Shown here: positions 11,854 through 41,090 of the stretch, piece after piece | Position numbering within the stretch: position 1 is the stretch's first letter | Layout of the letters: every line of letters starts with the position of its first letter | Made by a program: the position numbers and the translations under genes | The notes under the pieces: model-generated | The model's database searches: none | What the model saw: the letters and a program-made list of their open reading frames with translations, nothing else | What the model was told of the DNA's origin: nothing | From: Bacteroides zhangwenhongii | Lineage (GTDB): Bacteria; Bacteroidota; Bacteroidia; Bacteroidales; Bacteroidaceae | Assembly: GCF_009193325.2 (NCBI RefSeq) | Contig: NZ_CP059856.1 | Span: 2,852,001-2,916,000, forward strand | Direction of reading: 5' to 3' | DNA: 64,000 bases

Positions 11854-11867
11854 TTGATATAAATCAA
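11854..11867. promoter_or_regulatory. FNR/CRP-like palindrome upstream of the small gene before nuo
   Basis: TTGATATAAATCAA matches the classical FNR-type consensus TTGAT-N4-ATCAA exactly. The symmetry extends to GATTGATATAAATCAATC at 11852-11869. Its centre is about 69.5 bases upstream of the -7 box at 11930. A near-identical arrangement occurs at 41077-41090. Identity of the binding protein is inferred. Confidence 0.55.
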
Positions 11868-11903
11868 TCGGAGTGCTAAAAAAACCTTTTTTGCTACCCC
11901 GAC

Positions 11904-11937
11904 TTTGCAAAAAGTATAAATATTAGTTCTATATTTG
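11904..11937 (+). promoter_or_regulatory. σABfr promoter (TTTG / TATATTTG)
   Basis: TTTG at 11904-11907 and TATATTTG at 11930-11937 with a 22-base spacer fit the Bacteroides -33/-7 pair. The start codon of the next gene is 20 bases downstream. This may also be the nuo operon promoter, since no TAnnTTTG box is seen in the 118 bases before nuoA. Confidence 0.7.
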
Positions 11938-11956: not shown

Positions 11957-12334
11957 ATGAAACAAAGCTTAAAATTCGGACTACTTTTGGTACTGGCTTT
12001 GCTCATTCATTGCGCTACAGACGGGGCAATGGAAAACAATTGCAAAGCTTCCTCCCCGACTTATCGGCAGGAGAAGTGCTATGTGTCTCAGGACCGTCCG
12101 GTACATAATGCTTTGGAACGTCTTTACCATCTTTATTCCACCCAATCTTGCGATATGAGTCATACGGACGTCGCACATGTTCCGGCAGATAAAAGTATAC
12201 TGTTACTGATCACTTACTTCTGCGAGCATTACAAATTCCAAAGTCCGCCTCCCTCATCTTCGCTTCACTCTTCCGAATATTTCTACGATCCTATCTCCTA
12301 TTATATATACGGGTTAAGAAAGATTGTGGTTTAG
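11957..12334 (+). CDS. Small exported protein of unknown function upstream of nuoA
   Basis: 125 residues that I do not recognise. An N-terminal signal-like helix (KFGLLLVLALLIHC) is followed by a soluble region with several cysteines (about residues 19, 29, 41, 64, 88), one hydrophobic patch SILLLITYF and a tyrosine-rich C-terminus. The C19 context lacks a small residue at -1, so a lipobox is doubtful. A clear promoter and an FNR-like palindrome precede it, and nuoA follows after 118 bases in the same direction with no terminator between. It could be the first gene of the complex I transcription unit, but no respiratory function can be read from the sequence. Confidence 0.7.
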   Translation: MKQSLKFGLLLVLALLIHCATDGAMENNCKASSPTYRQEKCYVSQDRPVHNALERLYHLYSTQSCDMSHTDVAHVPADKSILLLITYFCEHYKFQSPPPSSSLHSSEYFYDPISYYIYGLRKIVV

Positions 12335-40686: not shown

Positions 40687-40721
40687 AGTGGGGATATCGT
40701 TTTCAATAACGTATCCCCACT
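40687..40721 (-). terminator. Terminator after the micropeptide pair
   Basis: AGTGGGGATA pairs with TATCCCCACT, and CGTT with AACG further in, with one bulged base. On the minus strand it is followed by TTTGTTTATA. It lies 26 bases after the second micropeptide stop. Confidence 0.8.
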
Positions 40722-40746: not shown

Positions 40747-40839
40747 TCATTTCTCAATTCTATACCCCCATGACAGCATTTCGTTACGACCTACTTCACT
40801 GAGGATTTTTCTTACTAAAGAACTCATTTTCTTTGCCAT
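40747..40839 (-). CDS. 30-residue 'WGY' micropeptide 2
   Basis: A complete ORF of 30 codons, ATG at 40839 and TGA at 40747. It starts MAKKMSSLVRKILSEVG and ends with MLSWGYRIEK. The N-terminal half is a basic amphipathic helix. The WGY triplet is shared with the ORF 42 bases upstream, as is RKI. It has no strong ribosome site of its own, so translation may depend on the upstream ORF. It is followed by a hairpin. I do not recognise the family and no function is assigned. Confidence 0.7.
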   Translation of the reverse strand: MAKKMSSLVRKILSEVGRNEMLSWGYRIEK

Positions 40840-40881
40840 AATCTTAAATCTTTTAAATTACTAATTCCTGAAAACTAAAAC

Positions 40882-40974
40882 TTACTTGTTAGGGGTTGCA
40901 TTAATTGTCGAATATCCCCAAACATGTACATCGGCTTCGCCGATCTTTCTAAACAATCTTTTTAACCTTTTCAT
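40882..40974 (-). CDS. 30-residue 'WGY' micropeptide 1
   Basis: A complete 30-codon ORF, ATG at 40974 and TAA at 40882. It starts MKRLKRLFRKIGEADV and ends with HVWGYSTINATPNK. A perfect AGGAGGA ribosome site at 40982-40988, unusual in Bacteroides, sits 7 bases before the ATG, and a TATTTTTG -7 box is 34 bases upstream of the ATG. The helix is strongly cationic (K2 R3 K5 R6 R9 K10). There is no signal peptide and no cysteine. It is the same length as the next ORF and shares RKI and WGY. The family is unknown to me. Confidence 0.8.
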   Translation of the reverse strand: MKRLKRLFRKIGEADVHVWGYSTINATPNK

Positions 40975-40981
40975 TTTGTTA

Positions 40982-40988
40982 TCCTCCT
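40982..40988 (-). promoter_or_regulatory. Strong Shine-Dalgarno sequence of micropeptide 1
   Basis: AGGAGGA on the minus strand, 7 bases before the ATG. Most genes in this window lack such a site, so it marks high translation initiation of this tiny ORF. Confidence 0.85.
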
Positions 40989-41007
40989 AATTACATGTTT
41001 TACAACA

Positions 41008-41015
41008 CAAAAATA
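41008..41015 (-). promoter_or_regulatory. σABfr-type -7 box for the micropeptide pair
   Basis: Reads TATTTTTG on the minus strand. The FNR-like palindrome is centred 68.5 bases upstream of it. Confidence 0.65.
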
Positions 41016-41076
41016 CGGCCTTTGTTTATACGTTGTACCCCAAAAAGAGACAAATTTATGTTTTATAGCATATTTC

Positions 41077-41090
41077 TTGACTTGCGTCAA
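41077..41090. promoter_or_regulatory. FNR/CRP-like palindrome upstream of the micropeptide pair
   Basis: TTGACTTGCGTCAA is a 5-4-5 palindrome with the same half-site spacing as TTGAT-N4-ATCAA. Its distance to the -7 box nearly equals that of the palindrome at 11854-11867 to its -7 box (68.5 and 69.5 bases). Confidence 0.5.

Follow-up and report, generated by a model that had tools for sequence, protein, structure and literature searches.

A candidate operon of paralogous micropeptides with a conserved promoter block and ribosome site in Bacteroidaceae

Introduction

Aureocin A70 and enterocin L50 are tandem sets of related, cationic, helical and leaderless peptides. Strong Shine-Dalgarno sequences in a lineage that otherwise avoids them are known from rpsU and rpsR of the Bacteroidia (McNutt 2023, PMC9976891): according to passages of that paper, Bacteroidia ribosomes hide the 16S tail, those lacking bS21 favour strong sites, and rpsR of Bacteroidales often bears a strong Shine-Dalgarno. 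A pairing energy of -13 kcal/mol or better is given there as characteristic of rpsU, and in Flavobacterium rpsU appears to be the only target of control by bS21-less ribosomes. In the FNR/CRP-family regulons, the FNR box is described as TTGAT-N4-ATCAA and that of HcpR as TTGAC-N4-GTCAA, with GTAAC-N4-GTTAC in the HcpR2 branch, which includes Bacteroides (sections of PMC1274295). Finally, numerous candidate short ORFs are reported in the text of the sORF catalogues of B. thetaiotaomicron; mass spectrometry detected some of the products, including the 32-residue protein BT1 (PMC7366714, PMC7903761).

Here we describe two tandem 30-codon ORFs, A and B, which share features with each of these systems. 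As in rpsU and rpsR, a strong Shine-Dalgarno is kept where the class otherwise avoids one, and the micropeptide pairing lies in the range of the rpsR-like distributions described in PMC9976891 (-8 to -12). Nevertheless, the gene product here, mostly of 24-33 residues, is a peptide instead of a ribosomal protein, and the site pairs less strongly than the one of rpsU. A palindrome of the same form as in the FNR/CRP-family regulons stands at a fixed distance from the promoter and is unlike the HcpR2 box; a pair of 14-mers is also present here. Compared with aureocin A70 and enterocin L50, A and B have no recognised transporter or immunity gene nearby, have a conserved core and a conserved chromosomal place within the genus, and are found in Bacteroidaceae only so far. 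The A-B family is not described in the text of the two sORF catalogues, whose sequence lists could contain it, nor in the rest of the literature within reach, which leaves out most subscription papers and all supplements, sORF lists included. The family, with its promoter code, is an unannotated addition to the genomes of some common human gut bacteria.

Results and discussion

Layout of the locus

We analysed the window, that is, the whole stretch of 64,000 nucleotides. Its identity with Bacteroides finegoldii is ~98.5%, measured on two records of that species over 9.0 kb and 5.7 kb, respectively. The initial annotation had described two 30-codon minus-strand ORFs, an AGGAGGA 7 bases from the ATG of the first one, a -7 box, an FNR-like palindrome and a G/C-rich hairpin, all of which could be located, the ORFs to the base. 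The 14-bp repeat, present in two copies 63 bp apart, is an addition to that description. The features are as follows:

40882-40974, minus strand: ORF A, 30 codons, MKRLKRLFRKIGEADVHVWGYSTINATPNK
40747-40839, minus strand: ORF B, 30 codons, MAKKMSSLVRKILSEVGRNEMLSWGYRIEK
40982-40988, minus strand: AGGAGGA Shine-Dalgarno of the first cistron, 7 bases 5' of the ATG of A
41008-41015, minus strand: TATTTTTG, Bacteroides-type -7 box
41077-41090, strand not assigned: palindrome TTGACGCAAGTCAA, FNR/CRP-type, TTGAY-N4-RTCAA
41058-41071, minus strand: upstream copy (ATGCTATAAAACAT) of the 14-mer RTGYTRTAAAACAT
40995-41008, minus strand: second, downstream copy of that 14-mer (GTGTTGTAAAACAT), where transcription presumably starts
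40861-40874, minus strand: TTTTCAGGAATTAG, element 5' of B (AGGTATTAG in many relatives)
40688-40720, minus strand: terminator-like hairpin GTGGGGATA..TATCCCCAC, followed by TTTGTTT

The 80 bases 3' of B fold with -28.4 kcal/mol. The neighbours are those initially named, pepD matching TIGR01893 with 597 bits and the large gene, which has no NCBIfam family of its own, having a B. finegoldii counterpart labelled alpha-2-macroglobulin family protein. The B. finegoldii gene table, which is incomplete, lists no gene between the dipeptidase and the alpha-2-macroglobulin gene. The other neighbours annotated there within 9 kb are FtsH, RsfS, DUF349, MgtE, RsmA, a lysylphosphatidylglycerol-synthase-like membrane protein, DUF1573, MeaB and a DMT family transporter.

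Distribution and relationship of the peptides

Direct searches of 100 related genomes matched A in 29 and B in 24, all belonging to the genus of the window (60 genomes searched), and the 40 genomes of other genera gave no match to either ORF. Conservation among relatives, which had been proposed as a check of the two frames, is thus found, and for A it extends to four genera when a profile is used: of 299 genomes in the family, 41 gave a match, 37 of which were counted as strong (8 in g1, 22 in g52, 5 in g42 and 2 in g63). Four matches (G172, G222, G301 and G373; E 0.002-0.005) were taken as chance, three of them falling inside frames of at least 267 residues. The B profile matched 16 of the 299 genomes, including three of g52 (E 0.002-0.004) where tandem sets stand. 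A wider A profile, run against 393 genomes across the order, had no match outside the family and, within it, hit the own genome and a single other one; types B and C were searched within the family. The superfamily is, as far as seen, restricted to Bacteroidaceae, where it is patchy: 31 of the 60 same-genus genomes have no A match, and 19 same-genus genomes, several of them near complete, have none in the profile search of the 299.

In many relatives a third ORF, C, lies 3' of B and typically ends in NW[MI]EAM[RK]YY plus a few residues, whereas the operon of the window consists of A and B only. A separate tandem set, of three ORFs, is found in genus g52 (L223, L225), and three similar copies stand in genome G132 (L221). 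Counting operons as distinct by the first 61 bases of their first ORF, we obtained 85, of which 35 hold one ORF, 34 two and 16 three. Peptide lengths range from 24 to 36 residues, mostly 24-33, with one broken copy of 21. Eleven of the 85 operons were found only via the Shine-Dalgarno pattern, and the Shine-Dalgarno and palindrome counts given below were repeated without them.

A and B look like distant paralogs, as the initial annotation had suggested. Comparison of their two profiles gave a probability of 71% (E 3.7e-5) over 22 ungapped columns, and the two types merge when profiles are iterated on the 11,255 short ORFs of the fetched loci. Iterated profiles may drift; the pairwise comparison is independent of them and concerns two profiles only.

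Within the genus of the window, pepD or the alpha-2-macroglobulin gene flanks 67 of 74 loci (several loci per genome), with L189 lacking the alpha-2-macroglobulin gene at that place. In other genera the micropeptide genes adjoin different genes. Among 31 fetched loci and the window region, where clusters and not functions were compared, the only neighbour clusters common to genera are an MscS-type channel (seven in g52, two in g63) and one further gene (once in g1, once in g52). Nine flanking proteins from other genera were assigned by Pfam to a helicase, Sua5, MscS (two), Band 7, ProRS, a GYF/CD225 protein and an oxidoreductase, with one having no family.

We also considered a phage or plasmid origin and rejected it. 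The Shine-Dalgarno pattern matched eight viral contigs, none of which encodes the family, the g52-type pattern matched no viral contig, and the tblastn match of B in a B. finegoldii 'plasmid' record corresponds to the same neighbourhood, including pepD and the alpha-2-macroglobulin gene. Separately, a B. clarus-type A copy occurs in an unverified, unannotated 8.5-kb 'Bacteriophage sp.' scaffold from human faeces (L335, MT836837.1), which is possibly bacterial DNA.

Coding constraint

Third codon positions are the most variable in all three classes, which were set by short motifs. The mean minor-base fractions at positions 1/2/3 are.176/.147/.401 for A (76 sequences),.268/.246/.455 for B (39 sequences) and.211/.168/.350 for C (22 sequences), and pN/pS in moderately diverged pairs is 0.49, 0.30 and 0.41, respectively. 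Changes are not spread evenly over the codon positions; an even spread is what the initial annotation had named as speaking against the genes. The coding constraint read from these alignments is moderate. Among the five closest species (the uniqueness rule having dropped two of seven), the excess at third positions is significant for B (9 of 12 variable columns, P.0039) but not for A taken by itself (5 of 11, P.29). The distance between cistrons ranges from 32 to 448 bases while the frames stay. Indirect evidence of this kind indicates that A and B are translated genes.

Single peptides are dispensable: A is frameshifted in B. rodentium JCM 16496 (L147), by decay or assembly error, where B and C are open, A is absent from L006/G030, and in B. 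cutis (L018, L129) the operon lacks A and begins with B.

Promoter block

The 450 bases 5' of the first start contain the palindrome TTGAY-N4-RTCAA in 79 of 83 operons, versus none of 80 control stretches. These stretches lie further upstream and are largely coding, so the true leaders were also shuffled, which gave a mean of 0.34 leaders with the palindrome among the 83 and at most two. Leaving out the loci picked by their Shine-Dalgarno, 69 of 73 operons have the palindrome; two operons with fewer than 300 bases upstream were left out of the promoter counts. The 14-mer RTGYTRTAAAACAT or a close form of it is found in 65 of the 83, with at least two copies in 35 operons, spaced by 63 bp in 32, 62 bp in two and 43 bp in one (slightly looser pattern). 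The motif TAnnTTTG starts exactly 7 bases 5' of a 14-mer in 44 of 83 operons. In the 43 operons, from several genera, that have palindrome, 14-mer and -7 box together, the distance from the start of the palindrome to the downstream 14-mer is 82 bases in 38 and 81 in five. These comparisons indicate that the promoter block travels with the family.

If transcription starts just 3' of the -7 box, the centre of the palindrome would be near -80, a usual place for a CRP/FNR activator. The palindrome has the TTGA-N6-TCAA form of FNR/CRP-type regulons and a fixed promoter position, and the FNR/CRP label is taken from the palindrome itself. FNR and CRP are absent from the text of PMC12596196, and no known regulator could be assigned from that source.

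The element AGG[TA]ATTAG occurs in the leader or operon in 24 of 85 cases and in one control stretch. Its form AGGTATTAG was considered as an RbpB-binding motif and discarded, as the string is absent from the text of the RbpB paper (PMC11697453). Rfam at gathering threshold gave no RNA family in the operon region. In g52, leaders such as those of L090 and L099 are long; the G/C-rich segment that they contain 5' of the A-type ORF, e.g. CCGGGAGG..GCGCC, may form a structured RNA.

Ribosome site

The 16S tail of this genome ends in GGAACACCTCCTTTCT (5 copies), with no GGATCACC form, and the AGGAGGA of A pairs with this tail at -10.2 kcal/mol. Pairing of -8 kcal/mol or better is found in the first cistrons of 71 of 85 operons and in 10 of 66 later cistrons; without the pattern-picked loci the counts are 60 of 74 and 7 of 53. 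The same level is reached by 4 of 39 long ORFs of the window, 2 of 36 of other own-genome loci and 3 of 185 of relatives, and by 1, 0 and 3 mock stretches in these sets, respectively. Where A is absent (L018), B carries the same Shine-Dalgarno in front, and a similar site (-12.2) precedes rpsR in this genome. Some first cistrons are weak, namely that of g63 (only -3.5) and those of L009, L048, L183 and L224. None of the 85 operons apart from L007 (-13.4) and L185 (-17.2) is below the -13 kcal/mol of rpsU.

The initial annotation had called the AGGAGG site rare in this genome, which is not borne out: the string AGGAGG-N3-9-ATG occurs 297 times and is merely not enriched over the reversed control (314). 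This lack of enrichment means that Shine-Dalgarno use is not the rule in this genome. A scan with TAGGAGGATAACRANATGAAR, blind to the peptides and using one genome per species, returned 77 loci. In the records of Bacteroides, Mediterranea and Caecibacteroides, all 32 of these open a family member (one frameshifted); at the remaining 45 the ORF is a different one, and one of these loci is in another member of the Bacteroidota (Paludibacteraceae). Because this Shine-Dalgarno is conserved in a lineage that avoids such sites, it can be tested directly whether specialised Bacteroidia ribosomes have targets beyond ribosomal proteins.

Structure predictions and family searches

AlphaFold2 (AF2) predicts a single helix for each peptide, at residues 2-26 in A (mean pLDDT 78.3) and 2-29 in B (mean pLDDT 82.5), with pTM values of 0.30 and 0.37, the range obtained here for such short peptides. 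The hydrophobic moment of the N-terminus of A is 0.99, versus 0.41 in shuffled sequences (P.0024), and that of B 0.48 versus 0.24 (P.035); three other members gave P values of.024,.08 and.0066, the weak one (.08) being a B. clarus-type B.

The statement that no named family is known for the peptides agrees with our searches of Pfam, NCBIfam, PHROGs and the PDB. A and B themselves have no match in Pfam and NCBIfam, and 17 B members have none in Pfam. Among 28 A members, two NCBIfam families were hit by one member each (E 0.03 and 0.1), and PHROGs by one member (E 0.095). Against the PDB, the A profile gave one 17-residue overlap (C5HR2_4r, E 3.6e-4), with no stretch passing alone, and the B profile reached E 0.3.

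Possible functions

Sequence comparison shows conservation of the frames and of their order, and also of the promoter block and the ribosome site, which supports the initial proposal of a real mini-operon of paralogous peptides, and the claim that the layout is not due to chance is settled by this conservation among relatives. A and B would form a two-gene operon, and its products would be paralogous micropeptides, basic and with a single helix each, from a Bacteroidaceae family. A CRP/FNR-family regulator bound ~80 bp 5' of the start would switch its transcription, and a second factor may act on the pair of 14-mers with their 63-bp spacing. Translation would rely on Shine-Dalgarno pairing for the first peptide and do without it for the second. 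Both peptides would remain inside the cell as small helical regulators, binding the inner membrane or a protein partner through a K-rich face and the conserved GY tail, and would belong to a small regulon that answers a redox, respiratory or envelope cue. As for function alone, we infer that the peptides are probably small helical regulators made on such a cue. The joint reading, which requires the paralogous operon, the CRP/FNR switch, the intracellular role and the redox, respiratory or envelope regulon all together, is the one that we prefer, tentatively.

Other readings draw on the same features. By analogy, cationic helices of ~30 residues made from one transcript could be membrane-active toxins, similar to leaderless bacteriocins, that act on the membranes of kin or producer; the size, the tandem paralogs, the net positive charge and the amphipathic helices fit this, in a layout like that of aureocin A70 and enterocin L50. 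Leaderless bacteriocins have a dedicated transporter and an immunity gene adjoining, however, and neither was recognised among the annotated B. finegoldii neighbours within 9 kb or the nine flanking proteins elsewhere. Moreover, bacteriocins change fast, whereas the G-x-[NST]-E core and GY of B are constant over 17 diverse members, and we regard a toxin as unlikely. The RiPP precursor also suggested initially is not supported and was set aside, since no conserved modifying enzyme stands beside the peptide genes in the 31 fetched loci, the window region or the nine Pfam-scanned flanking proteins, the MscS-type channel and one gene being the only clusters common to genera. As for a cleavable leader and core, conservation runs from the N-terminus to GY without an evident split. 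The ribosome site raises another possibility, namely that A is readable mainly by ribosomes with a free 16S tail, short of bS21 or bS18, and that the operon reports or corrects this state. The contrast between first and later cistrons (60 of 74 versus 7 of 53) and the rarity of such pairing in front of long ORFs of relatives and other own-genome loci (3 of 185, 2 of 36) argue for it, as do the site taken over by B in L018, the similar site of rpsR and the behaviour of bS21-less ribosomes in the passages of PMC9976891. Against it, the -10 kcal/mol of A falls short of the -13 or better of rpsU, to which such control appears limited in Flavobacterium in that text; about a tenth of the long ORFs of the window (4 of 39) also reach -8, and the first cistrons of g63, L009, L048, L183 and L224 are weak. 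We find gating by ribosome state doubtful. An extended version is quite doubtful: here the operon reads ribosome state, A being translated chiefly by bS21- or bS18-less ribosomes when ribosomes are incomplete or stressed, and its regulator also controls the repeat-bearing small RNA and two secreted proteins described below. To our knowledge, and our literature search found no other, such gating would be the first outside ribosomal protein genes in Bacteroidales, if true.

Two further readings were considered. The product could be a small regulatory RNA with incidental or secondary ORFs, given a short putative transcript with its own terminator-like hairpin and the same promoter type 5' of a noncoding RNA candidate elsewhere in the genome (L330); this is very unlikely in view of the third-position pattern over the 76 A, 39 B and 22 C sequences, and of frames that are kept across spacers of 32-448 bases. 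Alternatively, A and B could be leader peptides that attenuate the alpha-2-macroglobulin gene, which lies just downstream on the same strand; this gene or pepD stands in the flanks of 67 of 74 loci. A cis-acting leader, another initial suggestion, calls for a fixed downstream gene, and this gene is fixed in most same-genus loci but different in other genera, where the same peptides adjoin unrelated genes. Because of these differing neighbours we do not take A-B as its leader; the genus of the window also provides L189, without the gene at that place, and a hairpin separates B from the alpha-2-macroglobulin gene, which leaves attenuation extremely unlikely.

A candidate regulon

The promoter layout of A recurs elsewhere in this genome, with conserved genes downstream. 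We defined a composite promoter as the palindrome, then 58-64 bases, then TAnnTTTG, which occurs four times in this genome and not at all in the reversed control. In ten genomes, selected by hand, it has 30 matches, with one in the control; some of the 30 are probably chance, being inside genes or before unrelated genes. The four sites of this genome stand 5' of A, of a 118-aa protein (L311), of a 125-aa ORF and of a noncoding stretch (L330). The third of these lies in the window:

11854-11937, plus strand: second composite promoter, palindrome, then TATATTTG
11957-12334, plus strand: 125-aa protein with a signal-peptide-like start

This promoter is also found 5' of the orthologous gene in G009 and G012 (L328, L329). 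The 125-aa protein has no Pfam family and 110 relatives, of which the few named ones are from Bacteroides, and is a probable member of the same regulon as A-B. The 118-aa secreted protein (L311/L260, own genome C1:100107) has the same promoter, with the 14-mer just 5' of the -7 box, no Pfam family and 546 relatives; its promoter is also present in G021, G012, G081, G297 and G322, and twice in G265. The noncoding RNA candidate (L330, own genome C1:4105516 on) spans ~250 bases with several AGGTATTAG repeats and ends terminator-like in GAATCCC..GGGGATTC. Other copies are L316, L324 and L304, the candidate and the composite promoter occur together also in G021, G012 and G009, and three copies gave no Rfam family at gathering threshold.

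The RNA candidate and the two secreted proteins hint at an envelope or redox response. Their common promoter would define a small regulon, comprising the peptides, the repeat-bearing RNA candidate and the two secreted proteins, for which a regulator can be sought. The same composite promoter also precedes other tandem short peptides, with a CPTGM.P[IV]F core, on the reverse strand of L327 (1760-2345; G317, g52).
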